Shown here: positions 53,649-64,000 of the stretch, piece after piece | Layout: every line of letters begins with the position of its first letter | How positions within the stretch are numbered: the first letter of the stretch is position 1 | Assembly: GCF_002127215.1 (NCBI RefSeq) | Contig: NZ_NFUT01000001.1 | Span: 868,001-932,000 of the forward strand | From: Hydrogenophaga sp. IBVHS2 | GTDB lineage: Bacteria > Pseudomonadota > Gammaproteobacteria > Burkholderiales > Burkholderiaceae_C | Direction of reading: 5' to 3' | DNA length: 64,000 bases | Notes under the pieces: model-generated | What the model was told of the DNA's origin: nothing | What the model saw: only the letters and a program-made list of their open reading frames with translations | Databases searched by the model: none | Made by a program: the position numbers and the translations under genes

Positions 53649-53709
53649 CGCGGCAGCTCCCCGGGGTACCGGGCGACTTTCCCATACCGACACCAACAGG
53701 AGACTCCCC

Positions 53710-55356
<1,647 letters not shown>

Positions 55357-55365
55357 TCCGTCGGC

Positions 55366-56640
55366 ATGCAGCCAGCCTCCGCCCGCACCGAGCCGGAGTC
55401 CGCCGGGCGACGCCGCTGGCTGGCGGCGGCCGCCCTGGGTGCGGCCGGCGTGGCCTTGCCGGGCTGCGTGCGCAGCGCCGACGTGGTGCGGCTGGCCTAC
55501 ATCGATCCCCTGTCAGGGCCGGCCGCCGACGTGGGCCGCAACGGCCTGCGCACCTGGCAGTTCCTGGCCGCGCGCCTCAATGAGCAGGAGAACCCCGCCG
55601 GTCTGCGGTTCGAGGTGGCGGGATTCGACAACAAGGGATCGCCCCAGGAATCGCTGCATGCCCTGCGCGCGGCCATCGACCAGGGCTTCCGGGTGGTGCT
55701 GCAGGGCAATGGATCGGGCGTGGCGGCCACCCTGGTCGCCGCCATCGAACGCCACAACGAGCGTTTTCCCCAGCGGGACGTGCTGCTGCTCAACTACGCG
55801 GCCATGGACCCGGCGCTCACCCGCGAGCGCTGCAGCTTCTGGCATTTCCGCATCGACGCGGACACCGCCATGAAGACCCAGGCGCTGGTCACCTTCCTGG
55901 CCCAGGACACGCCGTGGCGCCGGGTGGCGCTGCTCAACCAGAACTATGCCCATGGTCAGCAGGTGTCGAGCTGGTTCCGTCGCAAGGCCGAGGAGACGGG
56001 GGACGGCCTGAGGGTGGTGTCCGACCAGCTGCACCCGGCCTTCATCCTGCGGGACTTCGCGCCCTGGGTGCGGCAGCTGCGCGACTCCGGCGCGCAGGTG
56101 CTGGTCACCGGCAACTGGGGCGTGGACCTGCGGCGGCTCTTCGACAGCCTCGAGGCCGAGGGCATCGACCTGCCGGTGTTCGGCTACTACACCCACCTGC
56201 CCGGCATCGCCTCCCGGCTGGTTGCCTACGGGCGGCCGATGCCGGTGTTCCAGGTGGGGTCGAGTCACACCAACCAGCCTGGACGGCTGGGCCTGCTCAT
56301 GGAGGCATTCGCCAGGCAACACGAGGAGGATCTCGTGGTGAGTTCGGCCTACGACGGGCTGGTCATGCTGGCCCGGGCCATGGCCCGGGTGGGCCGAAGC
56401 TCGGCCACCGATCTGGCCCGGGAGATGAGCGGCATGCAGTTCGACGGGTTCGACGGTCCGGTGGTCCTGCGATCGGCGGACCATCAGCTGCAGAAGGGCC
56501 TCTACATCAACCGCTGGCAACGCACCGACGCGGTGCACCCGCGGGGTGCCGACGGCACCGACCACACCTTCGCACCGGTGCGCCATTTCGACGGCGTCGC
56601 CGTGAGCCAGCCGGCCCAGTGCGGCATGGTCCGCCGCTAA
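55366..56640 (+). CDS. Liv-type periplasmic binding protein 1 (lipoprotein-like)
   Basis: Type I periplasmic binding protein, 424 aa, a paralogue of the next gene (shared DFAPW/Y, VTGNWG/ITGNWG and NQNYA/SHGQQV blocks). The N-terminus has an RRR stretch and a hydrophobic segment ending in ALPGC, with Cys34 as a possible lipidation site; Pro at -2 makes the lipobox imperfect, and a Tat-type signal is also possible. Cys156 and Cys419 have equivalents in the paralogue. It starts 9 bases after the ligase gene. The ligand is unknown. Confidence 0.85.
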   Translation: MQPASARTEPESAGRRRWLAAAALGAAGVALPGCVRSADVVRLAYIDPLSGPAADVGRNGLRTWQFLAARLNEQENPAGLRFEVAGFDNKGSPQESLHALRAAIDQGFRVVLQGNGSGVAATLVAAIERHNERFPQRDVLLLNYAAMDPALTRERCSFWHFRIDADTAMKTQALVTFLAQDTPWRRVALLNQNYAHGQQVSSWFRRKAEETGDGLRVVSDQLHPAFILRDFAPWVRQLRDSGAQVLVTGNWGVDLRRLFDSLEAEGIDLPVFGYYTHLPGIASRLVAYGRPMPVFQVGSSHTNQPGRLGLLMEAFARQHEEDLVVSSAYDGLVMLARAMARVGRSSATDLAREMSGMQFDGFDGPVVLRSADHQLQKGLYINRWQRTDAVHPRGADGTDHTFAPVRHFDGVAVSQPAQCGMVRR

Positions 56641-56775: not shown

Positions 56776-58005
56776 ATGCATTTCGCTCTGAAGACCGTCG
56801 CTGCCGCAGGCATTGCCCTGACCATGGCCAGCGCTTTTGCCCAGAAGGGCGAGACGGTGAAGATCGCGCTGATCGACCCGCAGACCGGCCTCATGGGCCC
56901 GGTGGGTCTGAACCAGCTTCGCAGCTGGCAGTTCTTCGCCGAGAAGTTCAGCCAGTCCAACCCGGCGGGCGTCAAGTTCGAGGTGGTGGGGTTCGACAAC
57001 AAGCTCAGCCCGGCCGAGAGCCTGAACAACTTCAAGGCTGCGCTGGACCAGGGCGTGCGCTACATCGCCCAGGGCAACGGCTCGTCGGTGGCCGGCGCGC
57101 TGGTCGACGCCGTCAACAAGCACAACGAGCGCAACCCGGGCAAGGAGGTGGTGTTCCTGAACTACGCGGCGGTGGACCCCGACCTCACCAACAGCAAGTG
57201 CAGCTACTGGCACTTCCGCTTTGACGCCGACACCTCCATGAAGATGGAGGCCATGACCACCTTCATGAAGGACCAGCCGGACGTCAAGAAGGTCTACCTG
57301 CTCAACCAGAACTATTCGCACGGCCAGCAGGTGGCCAAGTTCGCCAAGGAGAACCTCGCCCGCAAGCGCCCCGACATCCAGATCGTGGGTGAAGACCTGC
57401 ACCCGCTGGCCCAGGTGCGCGATTTCGCGCCCTACATCGCCAAGATCAAGGCCTCGGGTGCCGACACCGTGATCACCGGCAACTGGGGCTCCGACCTGGC
57501 GCTCATGGTCAAGGCCGCCAACGAAGGTGGCTACAACGGCAAGTTCTTCACCTACTACACCGGCGTGACCGGCACGCCGTCGGCGCTGGGCACCGGTGGC
57601 GAAGGCCGCGTGTACCAGGTCTCCTACCAGCACTACAACATGGGCGGCCAGATGGGTCAGTGGACGGCCGAGTTCCAGAAGCGCTACAAGGACGACATGT
57701 ACACCGGCGCCATCCCGCTGGCCTATCAGGCGGTGAGCGAGGCCATGGCCAAGGCCAAGTCGACCGATCCGGTGAAGGTGGCGGCCGCCATGGAAGGCCT
57801 GAAGTTCAAGGGCTTCAACGGCGAGGTGGAAGTGCGCAAGCTCGACCACCAGCTGCAGCAGCCGCTGTTCATGACGGTGTGGTCCAAGACCGACGCCAAG
57901 AACCCGTACAGCCCCGAGAACACCGGCATGACGCTCAAGCCGGTGAAGGAATTCCCGTCCTTCATCGCCAGCACGCCGACCAGCTGCCAGATGAAGCGGC
58001 CCTGA
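56776..58005 (+). CDS. Liv-type periplasmic binding protein 2
   Basis: Type I periplasmic solute-binding protein, 409 aa, with a standard signal peptide (TVAAAGIALTMASAFAQ, cleavage near residue 22). It has the two-lobe receptor pattern, VKIALIDPQTGLMGPVG at the start of the mature protein and ITGNWGSDLALMVKAANEGG in lobe 2. Cys142 and Cys404 match the cysteines of the upstream paralogue and may form a disulfide tying the C-terminus to lobe 1. AGGAGACACC precedes the ATG. It is probably the main receptor of the downstream permease; ligand unknown. Confidence 0.9.
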   Translation: MHFALKTVAAAGIALTMASAFAQKGETVKIALIDPQTGLMGPVGLNQLRSWQFFAEKFSQSNPAGVKFEVVGFDNKLSPAESLNNFKAALDQGVRYIAQGNGSSVAGALVDAVNKHNERNPGKEVVFLNYAAVDPDLTNSKCSYWHFRFDADTSMKMEAMTTFMKDQPDVKKVYLLNQNYSHGQQVAKFAKENLARKRPDIQIVGEDLHPLAQVRDFAPYIAKIKASGADTVITGNWGSDLALMVKAANEGGYNGKFFTYYTGVTGTPSALGTGGEGRVYQVSYQHYNMGGQMGQWTAEFQKRYKDDMYTGAIPLAYQAVSEAMAKAKSTDPVKVAAAMEGLKFKGFNGEVEVRKLDHQLQQPLFMTVWSKTDAKNPYSPENTGMTLKPVKEFPSFIASTPTSCQMKRP

Positions 58006-58184: not shown

Positions 58185-59207
58185 ATGGAGTTCTTCATCA
58201 TCTCCATGCTCAACGGCGTCAGCTATGGGCTGCTGCTGTTCATGCTCAGCTCCGGGCTGACGCTGATCTTCAGCATGATGGGCGTGCTCAACTTCGCGCA
58301 CGCCAGCTTCTACATGGTGGGGGCCTATCTGGGCTTCACGCTGTCCAAATGGGTGGGCTTCTGGCCGGCGCTCATCGTGGCGCCGCTGGTGGTGGGCGCC
58401 CTGGGGGCGCTGTTCGAGCGGCTGACGCTGCGCAAGGTGCACAAGTTCGGGCATGTGCCCGAACTGCTGGTGACCTTCGGCCTGTCCTACATCATCCTGG
58501 AGCTGGTGCAGCTGATCTGGGGCCGCACCGCGGTGGAGTTCCCGCCGCCGGACATCCTCAAGGGGCCGGCCTTCACCCTGGCCCACCTGGCCGACGATTC
58601 GCTGCGCCTCTTCTGGGGCCAGGCGCCGATGGAGGTCTGCGCAGCGGCCGGCACCATCTGCTCGCCGTTCCCGGCCACGCGCGGCTTCATGATGCTGGTG
58701 GCCCTGCTGATGCTGGTGGCCCTGTGGCTGCTGCTCACCCGCACCCGCATCGGCCTGGTGATCCAGGCCGCACTCACCCACCCCGAGACGGTGGAGACCC
58801 TGGGCCACAACGTGCCGCGGGTCTTCATGCTCGTGTTCGGTGCCGGCACCGGTCTGGCCGGCCTGGCCGGCGTGATCGGCGGCAGCACCTTCGTCACCGA
58901 GCCGGCCATGGCGGCCACCGTGGGCTCGGTCATCTTCGTGGTGGTGGTGGTCGGCGGCATGGGCTCGCTCTCGGGTGCGTTCCTGGCCTCGCTGCTCATC
59001 GGCATCATCCAGACCTTTGCCGTGGCCATGGACCATTCCCTGGTCAGCGTGGCCCAGCAGCTGGGCCTGCAGCTGTCGGAGGGCCTGCGCAACAACTCGG
59101 TGCTCAAGCTGACCCTGTCGCAGGTGGCCCCGATCCTGCCGTACCTGTTCCTGGTGCTCATCCTCATCTTCCGGCCCAAGGGCCTTCTCGGCACCCGTGA
59201 AGGCTGA
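58185..59207 (+). CDS. livH: LivH-type ABC permease
   Basis: Inner-membrane permease of 340 aa with about eight hydrophobic segments. It starts with ISMLNGVSYGLLLFMLSSGL, the LivH N-terminus, and has VLNFAHASFYMVGAYLG and the late VVVVVGGMGSLSGAFLASLL, the cytosolic coupling region of the family. Length exceeds the usual 290-310 because of an extra extracytoplasmic loop at about 112-165 containing Cys152 and Cys159. The symbol marks family only; the substrate is probably not a branched-chain amino acid. It is 6 bases from the next permease gene. Confidence 0.9.
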   Translation: MEFFIISMLNGVSYGLLLFMLSSGLTLIFSMMGVLNFAHASFYMVGAYLGFTLSKWVGFWPALIVAPLVVGALGALFERLTLRKVHKFGHVPELLVTFGLSYIILELVQLIWGRTAVEFPPPDILKGPAFTLAHLADDSLRLFWGQAPMEVCAAAGTICSPFPATRGFMMLVALLMLVALWLLLTRTRIGLVIQAALTHPETVETLGHNVPRVFMLVFGAGTGLAGLAGVIGGSTFVTEPAMAATVGSVIFVVVVVGGMGSLSGAFLASLLIGIIQTFAVAMDHSLVSVAQQLGLQLSEGLRNNSVLKLTLSQVAPILPYLFLVLILIFRPKGLLGTREG

Positions 59208-59213
59208 ACTCCC

Positions 59214-60506
59214 ATGAACACGACCGTTCGCCCGGCCCCGGGCTTCAACCGCAACCGCTGGATCATCTGGTCCTCGTTCGCCCTGCTGCTGGCGGTGGCG
59301 CCGCTGCTGTTCAGCAGCAACCTGTCCATGACCATGCTGTCGCAGATGGGCATCGCCATCATCGCCTGCCTGTCCTACAATATCCTGCTCGGGCAGGGCG
59401 GCATGCTGAGCTTCGGTCATGCCGTCTACACCGGCCTGGGCTCCTACATGGCCATGCATGCGCTCAATGCGGCGGCGGGCGGCCAGCTGGCCATTCCGGT
59501 GTCCATGATCCCGCTGGTGGGCGGCGTGGCCGGGTTGTTCTTTGCCATGCTGTTCGGCTACGTGACCACCAAGAAGGCCGGCACGCCGTTTGCCATGATC
59601 ACCCTGGGCATGGCCGAGCTGGTGTTCGCCATGTCGCTCATGTTCTCCGAGTTCTTCGGGGGCGAGGCCGGCGTGTCGGGCAACCGGGTGGTGGGCGAAG
59701 CGTTCTTCGGCATCACCTTCGGGCCGCCGCGTCAGGTGTATTACCTGATCGCCGTCTACACCTTCATCTGCGTGGGCCTGATGTACGCCTTCACCCGCAC
59801 GCCGCTGGGCCGCATCCTGAACGCGGTGCGCGACAACCCCGAGCGGGTGGAGTTCATCGGCTACAACACCCAGAAGGTGCGCTACCTGGCCTTCATGATC
59901 GCCGGCTTCTTTGCCGGCGTGGCGGGCGGTCTGGCCACGCTCAACTTCGAGATCGTCACCGCCGAGGTGGTGGGTGCGGCGCGCTCCGGTGCCTACCTGC
60001 TGTTCACCTTCCTGGGCGGGGCCACCTTCTTCTTCGGCCCCATCATCGGCGGGGTGCTGATGGTGCTGGCGTCCGTCCTGCTGTCCGAGCTGACCAAGGC
60101 CTGGCTGCTGTACCTGGGCCTGATCTTCCTGTTCATGGTGATGTACGCCCCGGGCGGCGTGGCCAGCCTCATCATGATGAATGTGCGGGTGGCCGCCCAC
60201 GGCCTTCTGGGCCGGCTGTGGAGCAGCTATGTGGTGCTGGGTGTGCTGGGCCTGCTGATGCTGGCCGGCTTCGGCGCACTGGTGGAGATGATGTACCACC
60301 TGCAGCTCAATGCCGGCACCGGCACCGCGCTGAGCTACCTGGGCCTGCAGCTGGATGCAGGCAGCGCCGCCAGCTGGATCGCTTCCACCGCCGTGGCCCT
60401 GGTGGCCCTCGGCCTGTTCGAGTGGGTGCGCCGCCGCTTCCTCAAGGTCTGGAACGAGGTGCAGGTCATCATCGAGCAACGAACCGCCCCGAAGGAGGGC
60501 GCATGA
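59214..60506 (+). CDS. livM: LivM-type ABC permease
   Basis: Second permease of the transporter, 430 aa. The core shows LSYNILLGQGGMLSFGHAVYTG (split as the usual LivM motif near 57-78), TPLGRILNAVRDNPERVEFIG and the coupling segment GGATFFFGPIIGGVLMV. About 100 residues after the core add two further hydrophobic segments (near 335-365 and 390-410). The N-terminus is short. Its stop overlaps the ATG of the LivG-type ATPase (ATGA), and AAGGAGGG lies just before that overlap. Confidence 0.9.
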   Translation: MNTTVRPAPGFNRNRWIIWSSFALLLAVAPLLFSSNLSMTMLSQMGIAIIACLSYNILLGQGGMLSFGHAVYTGLGSYMAMHALNAAAGGQLAIPVSMIPLVGGVAGLFFAMLFGYVTTKKAGTPFAMITLGMAELVFAMSLMFSEFFGGEAGVSGNRVVGEAFFGITFGPPRQVYYLIAVYTFICVGLMYAFTRTPLGRILNAVRDNPERVEFIGYNTQKVRYLAFMIAGFFAGVAGGLATLNFEIVTAEVVGAARSGAYLLFTFLGGATFFFGPIIGGVLMVLASVLLSELTKAWLLYLGLIFLFMVMYAPGGVASLIMMNVRVAAHGLLGRLWSSYVVLGVLGLLMLAGFGALVEMMYHLQLNAGTGTALSYLGLQLDAGSAASWIASTAVALVALGLFEWVRRRFLKVWNEVQVIIEQRTAPKEGA

Positions 60507-61300
60507 ACACGGCAACCACCCCGGCGGGCAATGTCCCGGCCATCGAACTGCGCGACCTGCGCAAGAGCTTCGGCAAGACCGACATCATCCGCGGCGCCAA
60601 TCTGGTGGTGCAGCCCGGCGAGCGGGTGGCCATCATCGGCCCCAACGGCGCCGGCAAGTCCACGCTGTTCAACCTGATCTCGGGCCGGTTCGGGCCCAGC
60701 AGCGGCGAGATTCTGCTCAACGGCCAGCGCATCGACGGCATGATGCCGTTCGAGATCAACCGCATGGGCCTGTCACGCAGCTTCCAGATCACCAACATCT
60801 TTCCCAAGCTCAGCGTGTTCGAGAACCTGCGCTGCGGCGTGCTCTGGAGCCTGGGCTACCGCTACACGCTGTTCCGCTTCCTGGCCGGCCTGCACGATGC
60901 CAACGAACGCGCCGAACAGCTCATGCGCGACATCCGCCTGGACCGCAAGCGCGATGTGCTGGCCATGAACCTCACCTATGCCGAGCAGCGCGCGCTGGAG
61001 ATCGGCATCACGATCGCCGGCGGTGCACAGGTGATCCTGCTGGACGAACCCACCGCCGGCATGAGCAAGAGCGAGACGGCGCGCTTCATCGAGCTCATCC
61101 GCGAGGTCACGGTGGGCAAGACGCTGCTCACGGTGGAGCACGACATGGGCGTGGTGTTCGGTCTGGCCGACCGGATTGCGGTGGTGGTGTACGGCGAGGT
61201 GATCGCCTGCGACACGCCCGATGCGGTGCGCGCCAACCCGCGCGTGCAGGAGGCCTATCTCGGCTCGGTGCTGGCCGACCAACAGGCCGCCGGCCACTGA
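60503..61300 (+). CDS. livG: LivG-type ABC ATPase
   Basis: Cytosolic ATPase, 265 aa. Walker A GPNGAGKSTLFNL has Lys52; the Q-loop lies in SRSFQITNIFPKL; Walker B is VILLDEPTAGM with the catalytic Glu; the H-loop is VEHDMG. The signature is LTYAEQRALEIG with Ala160 where LivG usually has Gly (YGQQ/YGEQ). The LivG-specific long insert after the Q-loop is present. The start at 60503 overlaps livM by 4 bases and has a strong AAGGAGGG. It is expected to pair with the LivF-like ATPase below. Confidence 0.9.
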   Translation: MNTATTPAGNVPAIELRDLRKSFGKTDIIRGANLVVQPGERVAIIGPNGAGKSTLFNLISGRFGPSSGEILLNGQRIDGMMPFEINRMGLSRSFQITNIFPKLSVFENLRCGVLWSLGYRYTLFRFLAGLHDANERAEQLMRDIRLDRKRDVLAMNLTYAEQRALEIGITIAGGAQVILLDEPTAGMSKSETARFIELIREVTVGKTLLTVEHDMGVVFGLADRIAVVVYGEVIACDTPDAVRANPRVQEAYLGSVLADQQAAGH

Positions 61301-61312
61301 ACGGAGACACCC

Positions 61313-62008
61313 ATGCTCGACATCCAGGACCTTCACGCCTACTACGGCAAGAGCCACGTGCTGCACGGCGTCACCCTGACGGTGAAGCCCGGCGAGATCG
61401 TGGCCCTGCTGGGCCGCAACGGCTCGGGTCGCTCCACCACGGCCAAGGCCATCATGGGCCTGGTGGAATGCCAGGGCCGCATCCGCTTCAAGAACCAGGA
61501 CATCCTGGGCAAAAAACCGTTCGAGATCGCCCACCTCGGCCTGGGCCATGTGCCCGAGAACCGCGACATCTTCCCCAAGCTCACGGTGCACCAGAACCTG
61601 CTGCTGGGCCAGAAAGGCAAGGGCACCGGCTCGCGCTGGGGCTTCGACGACATGTACGCCATGTTCCCGCGCCTGAAGGAGCGGCAGCACACCGAGGCCG
61701 GCGTGCTCTCGGGCGGCGAGCAGCAGATGCTCACCCTGTGCCGCACCCTCATGGGCGACCCCGACCTCATCATCATCGACGAGCCCACCGAAGGCCTGGC
61801 GCCCAAGATCGTGGAGCTGGTGGCCGAATACCTGCAGCGCCTCAAGGCCCGGGGCATCTCGGTGCTGCTGATCGAGCAGAAGCTGACCATCGCCATGAGC
61901 ATCTCGGACAGGGCGCTGGTCATGGGCCATGGCAGCATCGTGTTCGAGGGCACGCCCGAGGACCTGCGCAACGACCCGGTCACCCGAAAAGAATGGCTTG
62001 AGGTCTGA
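61313..62008 (+). CDS. livF: LivF-type ABC ATPase with Arg in Walker A
   Basis: Second ATPase, 231 aa. The Walker A reads GRNGSGRSTTAK: Arg40 (codon CGC at 61430) replaces the near-invariant Lys. The rest is canonical, with PENRDIFPKLTVHQNLLLG, signature LSGGEQQML at 132-140, Walker B LIIIDEPTEGLAPK and the LivF-typical EQK in place of the switch His. GGAGACACCC before the ATG is the ribosome site. The substitution would weaken ATP binding at one of the two composite sites. Confidence 0.9.
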   Translation: MLDIQDLHAYYGKSHVLHGVTLTVKPGEIVALLGRNGSGRSTTAKAIMGLVECQGRIRFKNQDILGKKPFEIAHLGLGHVPENRDIFPKLTVHQNLLLGQKGKGTGSRWGFDDMYAMFPRLKERQHTEAGVLSGGEQQMLTLCRTLMGDPDLIIIDEPTEGLAPKIVELVAEYLQRLKARGISVLLIEQKLTIAMSISDRALVMGHGSIVFEGTPEDLRNDPVTRKEWLEV

Positions 62009-62108: not shown

Positions 62109-64000
62109 ATGACCGCTCAGTACCAGGTCCACGGCGACGTGGCCGTCATCACGCTGAACAACCCGCCGGTCAACGGCCTGGGTCTGTCGACCCGCCAGGG
62201 CATCACCGACGGGCTGGCCCGTGCCGAGGCCGATGCGGCCGTCAAGGCGGTGGTCATCACCGGCGCCGGCAAGGCCTTCTCGGGCGGCGCCGACATCCGC
62301 GAGTTCGGCACGCCCAAGGCGCTGGCCGAGCCCAACCTGCTGTCGGTGATCCTGGCGGTGGAGAACAGCCGCAAGCCGGTGGTGGCGGCCCTGCACAGCG
62401 TGGCCATGGGCGGTGGTCTGGAGCTGGCGCTCGGCGCCCACTACCGCATCGCCGCTCCTGGCTGCAATGTGGCCCTGCCCGAGGTCAAGCTGGGCCTGAT
62501 CCCGGGTGCCGGCGGCACCCAGCGCCTGCCGCGCGCGGTGGGGGTGGAGGTGGCCCTGAACATGATCGTCAGCGGCGAGCCGGTCAAGAGCGAGATGCTG
62601 GCCCAGATCCCGGGCCAGAAACTCTTCGACAAGCTGGCCGCATCGGCCGAATCGCTGATGGACGAGGCCCTGGCCCTGGCCCGTGAGGTGGCCGCGCGCC
62701 ACGCCGACGGCAGCCCGCTGCCGCTGGTGCGCAACCTGCCCTGCAAGCACAAGGACGGTGACGCCTACTTCCAGTTCGCCCGCAACATGGTCAAGGGCAT
62801 GGCCAAGAACTTCCCGGCCCCGGGCAAGTGCGTGGACGCGGTGGAAGCCGCCACGCAGAAGAAGTTCAATGACGGCATGGCCTTCGAGCGCGAGATCTTC
62901 ATCAACCTGATGTGGACGCCCGAGTGCCGCGCGCTGCGCCACCTGTTCACCGCCGAACGCGCCGCCAGCAAGATCCCCGACGTGGCCGACGACACGCCGC
63001 AGCGCAAGATCGAGAAGGTGGCCGTCATCGGCGCCGGCACCATGGGTGGCGGCATCTCCATGAACTTCCTCAATGCCGGCATCCCGGTCACCATCCTGGA
63101 GACCAAACAGGAGGCCCTGGACCGCGGCGTGGGTGTCATGCGCGGCAACTACGAGGCGCAGGTGAAGAAGGGCAAGCTCAAGCAGGACAAGCTCGATGCC
63201 CGCATGGCGCTGCTCAAGACCACGCTGGACTACAAGGACATCGGCGACGCCGACCTGGTGATCGAGGCCGTGTTCGAGGACATGGGCGTCAAGGAAGCCG
63301 TGTTCAAGAAGCTGGATGAGGTCATGAAGCCCGGTGCCATCCTGGCCTCCAACACCTCCACGCTGGACGTGAACCAGATCGCCGCCTTCACGAAGCGCCC
63401 GCAGGACGTGGTGGGTCTGCACTTCTTCAGCCCGGCCAACGTCATGAAGCTGCTGGAGGTGGTGCGTGGCGAGAAGACCGCCAAGGACGTGATGGCCACC
63501 GTCATGACCGTGGCCAAGAAGATCAAGAAGACCGCCGTGGTCTCCGGCGTGTGCGACGGCTTCATCGGCAACCGCATGATCGAGCAGTACGGCCGCCAGG
63601 GCGGCTTCCTGCTGGACGAGGGCTGCACCCCGGCCCAGGTCGACCGCGCGATCGAGAAGTTCGGCTTTGCCATGGGCCCCTTCCGCATGGGCGACCTGGC
63701 CGGCAACGACATCGGCTGGGCGATCCGCAAGCGCCGCTATGTGGAGAAGCCGGACATGAAGTACAGCAAGACCGCCGACCTGCTGTGCGAGAAGGGCCGC
63801 TTCGGCCAGAAGGTGGGCAAGGGCTGGTACGACTATGTGTCGGGCAAGCGCGACGCCATTCCCAACGCCGAGGTGGAGCAGATGATCGCCGACCACCGCG
63901 CCGCACTCGGCATCAAGCCGCGCAAGATCTCCGACGAAGAAATCGTGCAGCGCCTGGTGTTCTCGCTGGTCAACGAGGCCGCCCACATCCTGGAAGAGGG
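62109..64000 (+). CDS. Bifunctional enoyl-CoA hydratase/3-hydroxyacyl-CoA dehydrogenase (cut by window end)
   Basis: The first 630 codons are present and open to the right edge. The N-terminal crotonase domain has GADIREFG and the two catalytic Glu residues at about 105 (GGLELALG) and 125 (LPEVKLGLIPGAGGTQRLP). The 3-hydroxyacyl-CoA dehydrogenase domain starts near 298 with VAVIGAGTMGGGI, then EAVFED, SNTSTLD and the catalytic His in GLHFFSPANVMKLLEVV. This is the FadB/FadJ/peroxisomal MFE-1 arrangement for beta-oxidation. It has its own promoter 100 bases after livF. AGAGGAG precedes the ATG. Confidence 0.93.
   Translation, partial: MTAQYQVHGDVAVITLNNPPVNGLGLSTRQGITDGLARAEADAAVKAVVITGAGKAFSGGADIREFGTPKALAEPNLLSVILAVENSRKPVVAALHSVAMGGGLELALGAHYRIAAPGCNVALPEVKLGLIPGAGGTQRLPRAVGVEVALNMIVSGEPVKSEMLAQIPGQKLFDKLAASAESLMDEALALAREVAARHADGSPLPLVRNLPCKHKDGDAYFQFARNMVKGMAKNFPAPGKCVDAVEAATQKKFNDGMAFEREIFINLMWTPECRALRHLFTAERAASKIPDVADDTPQRKIEKVAVIGAGTMGGGISMNFLNAGIPVTILETKQEALDRGVGVMRGNYEAQVKKGKLKQDKLDARMALLKTTLDYKDIGDADLVIEAVFEDMGVKEAVFKKLDEVMKPGAILASNTSTLDVNQIAAFTKRPQDVVGLHFFSPANVMKLLEVVRGEKTAKDVMATVMTVAKKIKKTAVVSGVCDGFIGNRMIEQYGRQGGFLLDEGCTPAQVDRAIEKFGFAMGPFRMGDLAGNDIGWAIRKRRYVEKPDMKYSKTADLLCEKGRFGQKVGKGWYDYVSGKRDAIPNAEVEQMIADHRAALGIKPRKISDEEIVQRLVFSLVNEAAHILEE

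Follow-up and report, generated by a model that had tools for sequence, protein, structure and literature searches.

A cluster of genes for an ATP-binding cassette (ABC) importer was identified in a 64,000-nucleotide stretch of the genome of Hydrogenophaga sp. IBVHS2 (contig NZ_NFUT01000001.1, positions 868,001 to 932,000; hereafter called the window). The cluster encodes two substrate-binding proteins, two permeases (LivH and LivM), and two ATPases (LivG and LivF), and the spacing between livG and livF is 12 bases. The genes and their products are as follows:

55366..56640, + strand: second, paralogous substrate-binding protein, 424 aa (PF13458, 163.9 bits)
56776..58005, + strand: substrate-binding protein, 409 aa (PF13458 Peripla_BP_6, 213 bits; solved structure 4xfk, E 1.4e-52)
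58185..59207, + strand: LivH-type permease, 340 aa (PF02653, 121.9 bits)
59214..60506, + strand: LivM-type permease, 430 aa (PF02653, 112.7 bits, residues 40-311)
60177..60503, + strand: C-terminal extension of LivM, approximately residues 322-430
60503..61300, + strand: LivG-type ATPase, 265 aa (PF00005, 95.3 bits, and PF12399 BCA_ABC_TP_C, 43.5 bits)
61313..62008, + strand: LivF-type ATPase, 231 aa (PF00005, 99.1 bits; nearest solved structure by sequence 1ji0, E 9.5e-55)

The domain set of LivHMGF/HAAT-type importers is complete, comprising two BPD_transp_2 domains, Peripla_BP_6, two ABC_tran domains, and BCA_ABC_TP_C in LivG, all above the Pfam cut-offs. The cluster encodes an ABC importer of the LivHMGF type, from a subfamily that is widespread in proteobacteria. 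The two ATPases (P0002 and P0001) scored below the NCBIfam equivalog cut-offs for UrtE (221.3 against 285.8 bits), LivF (164.9 against 441), UrtD (195.3 against 304.1), and LivG (167.7 against 362), and LivH and LivM of the window were likewise below the cut-offs of the LivH equivalog and the LivM subfamily models, respectively. Among the best 80 of 574 relatives, the closest named ones are from Hydrogenophaga and other Comamonadaceae, and the LivF of Hydrogenophaga sp. IBVHS1 is 89% identical to that of the window.

The translation of the window's livF reads 'LLGRNGSGRSTT' and contains Arg40 in Walker A (GRNGSGRSTT) in place of Lys; LivG has Ala at position 160, where the signature (NLTYAEQ) would normally have Gly. 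As described in passages of PMC7544095, the A-loop, Walker A, Walker B, Q-loop, and H-loop of one subunit of an ABC dimer face the signature of its partner, and LivF Arg40 and LivG position 160 should therefore share one composite ATP site, here termed site 1. By homology, both changes are thus assigned to site 1, and the opposite site (site 2) is consensus. An earlier sequence-only reading of this DNA had reported the two residues, their placement in a single site, and the consensus nature of the opposite site; translation confirmed the residues, and the assignment by homology agrees with the rest. A single-sequence structure model of LivF (predicted local distance difference test score, pLDDT, 34.7) was unusable and was not interpreted.

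Comparison was based on 277 loci, from which 261 LivF/LivG pairs with 258 distinct LivF proteins were obtained. The loci came from the best 80 of the 574 relatives among named genomes, from the same genome as the window, and from searches of 398 and 120 genomes of the phylum, 399 genomes of the order, and 289 genomes of another class of the phylum (that of G035), and 80 further stretches were taken from match lists. The matches used were 32 of 32 in the 398-genome search, 26 of 26 in the 289-genome search, 53 of 81 in the search of the order, and 90 among the matches listed in the 120-genome search. LivF and LivG reading frames were classified by two purpose-built profiles, paired if adjacent on one strand, and aligned. 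Eleven frames that scored as LivF, some of which (such as L013, L016, and L020) are not LivF by their motifs, had no LivG within 300 bases and were left out; L012 and L015 yielded no pair, and a few of the 261 represent the same gene pair more than once, excised with different limits (L001/L014 and L008/L017). The 164 pairs with Arg in LivF and Ala or Ser at LivG 160 are referred to as the subfamily, and counts were repeated by LivF identity to the window, since picking members by the trait itself would be circular. This genome sample represents one phylum; a set of plasmid records (15 examined, of 40 listed and 1648 found) adds two records from other phyla. The residues concerned and their conservation are as follows:

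61430..61432 (CGC), + strand: LivF Arg40, replacing the Walker A Lys; Arg in 163/163 pairs with LivF at least 51% identical to that of the window
60980..60982 (GCC), + strand: LivG Ala160, replacing the signature Gly; Ala in 147, Ser in 16, and Gly in 0 of the same 163 pairs
61556..61558, + strand: LivF Glu82 at the Q-loop Gln position (VPENR); Glu in 164/164 subfamily pairs and 81/97 others
61877..61879, + strand: LivF Gln189 at the switch-His position (LIEQK); Gln in 164/164 subfamily pairs, His in 0/261 pairs
61706..61723, + strand: LivF signature LSGGEQ, residues 132-137, consensus, opposite site; SGGE in 164/164 subfamily pairs
60656..60658, + strand: LivG Lys52, Walker A, consensus, opposite site; Lys in 164/164 subfamily pairs
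60785..60787, + strand: LivG Gln95, Q-loop, consensus, opposite site; Gln in 164/164 subfamily pairs
61046..61048, + strand: LivG Glu182, Walker B catalytic Glu, consensus; Glu in 164/164 subfamily pairs
61139..61141, + strand: LivG His213, switch His, consensus; His in 164/164 subfamily pairs

Of five catalytic-motif residues inspected, site 1 has lost four, namely the Walker A Lys, the Q-loop Gln, the switch His, and the signature Gly, and site 2 has lost none. The two changes are fixed above a boundary of similarity: when LivF shares 51.0% or more of its residues with that of the window, all pairs (163) have Arg and lack the signature Gly (147 Arg+Ala and 16 Arg+Ser), so that neither chance nor sequencing error accounts for them, whereas the 98 pairs below it comprise 87 Lys+Gly, 8 Arg+Gly, 1 Lys+Ala, 1 Lys+Ser, and 1 Arg+Ser. 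The last of these (L046) lies at 50.9%, as does the nearest row with Lys (L251). Collapsing LivF at 100, 90, 80, and 70% identity left 162, 99, 50, and 17 Arg+Ala/Ser rows, respectively. Among the 97 pairs outside the subfamily, Lys is retained in 89 and Gly in 95. The plasmid records divide in the same way. Arg was found in 8/8 records with LivF at least 54% identical, accompanied by Ala (2), Ser (5), or Pro (1) at LivG 160 (Paracoccus jeotgali, Sulfitobacter pontiacus, Rhizobium sp. ACO-34A, Thalassospira marina, Phaeobacter inhibens, Cupriavidus oxalaticus, Variovorax sp. PDNC026, and Caballeronia insecticola), and Lys with Gly in 7/7 records with LivF at most 50% identical. A LivF as close as E 1e-70 was present in 29 of the 398 genomes of the phylum.

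The sequence-only reading had also counted the missing switch His of LivF among the changes at this site. The residue is indeed absent from the window's LivF, but this is not special to the locus, and the replaced Q-loop Gln (Glu82) had not been listed. No switch His occurs in any of the 261 LivF proteins, and the Q-loop position is Glu in 245 and Gln in 16 of them; the loss of the His is therefore older than the subfamily, and Arg and Ala are found in a pair of sites that was unequal beforehand.

Arg40 is encoded by six different codons (CGC 105, CGT 31, CGG 13, CGA 11, AGG 3, and AGA 1) and LivG position 160 by eight, four for Ala and four for Ser. Of the 228 LivF columns, 45 are invariant, that of Arg40 among them, and the least similar LivF pairs of the subfamily are 45% identical. 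Because Arg is invariant over six codons and between proteins this divergent, it is maintained by selection on the protein and not by drift. Two trees were constructed with the trait columns blanked, one from 117 concatenated pairs of the 200 then in hand and the other from 67 of the 261 pairs under a mixture model. In both, the subfamily rows form a single branch (26 rows with support 100 and 23 rows with support 99, respectively), and the eight Arg+Gly pairs form a separate one (support 99 and 97). A single origin of all Arg-containing LivF proteins was rejected by the approximately unbiased (AU) test (p-AU 5.4e-8). By these trees, the Walker A Arg arose at least twice in LivF, once with the signature Gly kept, barring an intervening loss. 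For the signature Gly, two losses are needed, one in the subfamily and the other in L009 and L183, which have Lys-containing LivF partners; the latter two are long branches, about whose joining the tree software warns. The LivG-like proteins of L009 and L183 have barely recognizable signatures (AITPSQQ and GLGAAGL).

The proposal that Arg40 and Ala160 might co-vary was borne out in so far as the two changes always occur together in the subfamily (163/163 pairs with LivF at 51% identity or more, and with loss of Gly in 8/8 plasmid records), but coupling is statistically undemonstrable from what amounts to one joint event. With two changes per trait on the tree and two independent pairs, the sign test gives p = 1, and co-variation was rejected as proof of coupling. 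Arg in LivF beside a normal LivG signature, which the same reading had named as evidence against its proposal, was found in part, in the second Arg lineage. Its eight pairs (L003, L131, L133, L134, L159, L165, L168, and L175), of which L003 (661-2187) corresponds to C6:67744-68421 of the window's own genome, resemble the subfamily in having the Walker A Arg and no switch His in LivF. They differ from it in that the LivG signature Gly is kept in 8/8, the signature Ser is lost in 8/8 (7 Pro and 1 Ala), and Arg has a separate origin. Their LivF motifs are GRNGxGR and, for Walker B, LLLDEI instead of DEP, and the LivG signature is mostly xPYGRK. The signature Ser is also absent from 36 of the 87 Lys+Gly pairs, and its loss beside Arg is suggestive at most.

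A further feature accompanies the altered ATPases. The LivM of the window extends about 109 residues past the permease domain, and this tail has no Pfam match. LivM was measurable in 231 of the 261 pairs (all except 20 Lys+Gly, the whole lineage of 8 Arg+Gly, 1 Lys+Ala, and 1 Arg+Ala/Ser). A tail of at least 70 residues was found in 160 of the 163 subfamily loci measured, the exceptions being L045, L267, and L270 (47, 45, and 14 residues, respectively), whereas all 66 unfused LivM proteins among the 68 measured outside the subfamily have tails of at most 45 residues. In the plasmid set, tails of 105-131 residues are present in 8/8 subfamily members and in none of the five outsiders with a measurable LivM. 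This subfamily-linked LivM extension is a new observation. Apparent fusions of LivH and LivM were seen in L156 and L157 (both Lys+Gly, with more than 300 residues past the domain), L286, and L288, a group that has LivG signatures such as ELAYGD.

By a hydropathy scan of the 160 tails, 98 have a pair of hydrophobic segments and 62 have a single one. In an alignment of 41 LivM proteins (that of the window and 40 relatives that are 61-74% identical), the invariant residues of the tail include Y339, G352, E358, M359, Y361, H362, W388, E403, R406, W413, and Q417. The AlphaFold model of LivM is weak as a whole (mean pLDDT 64.9) and stronger in the tail, where blocks from 321 to 420 have values of 63-90, with helices at 332-365 and 385-429; the tail is predicted to form a helical hairpin. 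With a modelled length of about 45 residues, the last helix may be long enough to extend beyond the membrane toward the ATPases, and that it reaches them is a conjecture.

The closest known system is the human sterol transporter ABCG5/ABCG8, which also has two different ATPases and a Walker A Lys-to-Arg change facing an altered signature. According to passages of PMC7756502, the ABCG8 Walker A (GSSGCGRAS) and the ABCG5 signature (ISTGE) leave one site inactive for hydrolysis, and the same mutations transferred to the intact site inactivate the transporter. Parts of PMC7756269 describe ABCG5/ABCG8 as departing from the usual degenerate pattern, the signature being altered together with the Walker A Lys-to-Arg change. 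Unlike the importer of the window, ABCG5/ABCG8 has no binding protein, and LivF further lacks the switch His and the Q-loop Gln, ABCG8 having been compared only at Walker A. Among solved structures, LivF is closest in sequence to 1ji0 and 1g6h, and the likeness to ABCG5/ABCG8 is probably one of convergence. The exporters TM287/288, TAP, BmrCD, and Pdr5 also combine one consensus with one non-consensus composite site, conserved in evolution, for which passages of PMC7756269 argue that such sites act as ATP-bound hinges; in Pdr5, however, Cys takes the place of the Walker A Lys (same source). Ordinary LivF/LivG and UrtD/UrtE importers share the Pfam domains of the window's proteins, including BCA_ABC_TP_C in LivG, and the solved LivF-like protein 1ji0 has Gln at the aligned switch-His position, but Lys+Gly is found in 87 of the 97 other pairs and the LivM extension in none of the measured unfused outsiders. 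The remark that importers seldom have a site of this kind concerns the published record: among the open-licence papers listed in our searches, judged by titles, abstracts, or passages, we found no description of a Walker A Arg in LivF or of an importer with such a site, and a search of them for a LivF cryo-EM structure gave no paper that matched all its terms.

On balance, we consider it probable that importers of the subfamily have two unlike ATP sites, of which site 2 hydrolyses ATP and site 1 serves as an ATP-holding hinge. Site 2, composed of LivG Lys52, Gln95, Glu182, and His213 and the LivF LSGGEQ motif, would be the hydrolysing site. Site 1, composed of LivF Arg40, Glu82, Glu157, and Gln189 and the LivG T-Y-A signature, would most likely have Mg-ATP bound with slow or no hydrolysis and would hold the two ATPases together on its side while site 2 opens and closes, giving one productive ATP per cycle. 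ATP binding at site 1 is plausible because LivF residue 41, the Walker A Ser/Thr (163 Ser and 1 Thr), and Tyr11, which we take to be the A-loop position, are retained in all 164 subfamily pairs. A broader form of this proposal is put forward tentatively, as a possibility: the whole importer subfamily would have settled on one-site hydrolysis, with the Arg-based site 1 as a permanent LivF-LivG hinge matched by the LivM hairpin, as an independent importer counterpart of the ABCG5/ABCG8 site.

Several points weigh against a hinge at site 1. The Walker B Glu157 of LivF is retained in 164/164 subfamily pairs, whereas loss of this Glu is named the hallmark of degenerate sites, as in degenerate-site exporters, in the abstract of PMC7544095; one composite site has non-consensus catalytic motifs and the other is consensus (by the homology-based assignment), as in degenerate-site transporters, but because Glu157 is kept we refer to site 1 as altered and propose no more than that it may function in the manner of a degenerate site. 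Arg for Lys is a conservative change and may support hydrolysis. The parallel with ABCG5/ABCG8 is close but inexact: ABCG8 has additionally lost the Walker A Ser/Thr (to Ala), which LivF keeps, and ABCG5 retains the second signature Gly, the one lost in LivG, a different signature residue being changed there. The joint change of Arg and loss of Gly is one evolutionary event, so that each of the two residues may be under a constraint of its own. No solved LivM homologue was found by sequence at E 1e-3.

The serious rival, although in our estimate rather unlikely, is that both sites hydrolyse ATP and that Arg40 and Ala/Ser160 form a mutually adjusted active site, in which Arg takes over phosphate contacts and Glu157 catalyses. 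The invariance of Glu157 and Ser/Thr41 would fit such a site, as would the constant pairing of Arg with loss of Gly in the subfamily, position 160 being restricted to Ala, Ser, and one Pro; moreover, parts of PMC12136057 on Escherichia coli DppABCDF, an importer with two different ATPases, describe a pair of ATP analogues bound at the interface and propose that both ATP molecules are hydrolysed, which also counts against a hinge. However, site 1 is without the switch His and the Q-loop Gln as well, the passages of PMC7756502 cited above treat the site with the related combination in ABCG5/ABCG8 as hydrolytically inactive, and Arg occurs with a Gly signature in the eight pairs of the second lineage, so that Arg is independent of Ala. 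An improbable further explanation is that site 1 was never fully catalytic in LivF at large and that Arg40 and Ala160 were refinements added late, which leave the cycle unaffected. The absence of the switch His from 261/261 LivF proteins, the Glu in place of the Q-loop Gln in 245/261, the repeated origin of Arg (at least two times), and the two LivG proteins without the signature Gly beside a Lys-containing LivF (L009 and L183) are consistent with it. A neutral position would be expected to drift, but Arg is unchanged across its six codons and position 160 is confined to Ala and Ser (Pro once), and the ordinary residues are constrained too, Lys being kept in 89/97 and Gly in 95/97 of the other pairs. 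Gene decay or sequencing error, for which nothing speaks beyond the non-consensus residues themselves, is extremely improbable and was rejected, as the open frames are intact, the operon order is conserved, and Arg is invariant despite silent codon changes.

The surroundings of the cluster bear on its substrate. In 60 full-length related loci (of 80, with 6 kb on each side), genes for a binding protein, LivH, LivM, LivG, and LivF are present in 60/60, a FadB-like gene lies downstream in 58/60, and a coenzyme A (CoA) ligase gene lies upstream in at least 46/60. The last count is a lower bound because two binding-protein genes push the ligase past the flank, as in the window, where the transporter is bounded by the following genes:

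53707-55356: CoA ligase (NCBIfam 3-(methylthio)propionyl-CoA ligase, 1011 bits against a cut-off of 822)
62109-63998: enoyl-CoA hydratase/3-hydroxyacyl-CoA dehydrogenase, flanking the transporter on the side opposite to the CoA ligase

Other members of the subfamily have other CoA enzymes, short-chain dehydrogenases, and keto-acid enzymes as neighbours. Judging from gene neighbourhood, the substrate is probably a carboxylic acid destined for CoA-dependent catabolism, which seems likelier than a branched-chain amino acid. Adjacent binding-protein paralogues like those of the window (55366-56640 and 56776-58005) occur in 13 of the 60 related loci, and the first of the two (55366-56640) has an N-terminal twin-arginine-like stretch followed by a lipobox-like LPGC.

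The retention of a non-hydrolysing site in many ABC transporters calls for an explanation, a question that passages of PMC7756269 treat in exporters. The subfamily described here would offer a binding-protein-dependent importer with an altered site in culturable bacteria, and close relatives with Lys+Gly, Arg+Gly, and Arg+Ala may allow the contribution of the Walker A Lys to be told apart from that of the signature Gly. Given the linked LivM extension, the asymmetry of the ATP sites may extend to the membrane domains.

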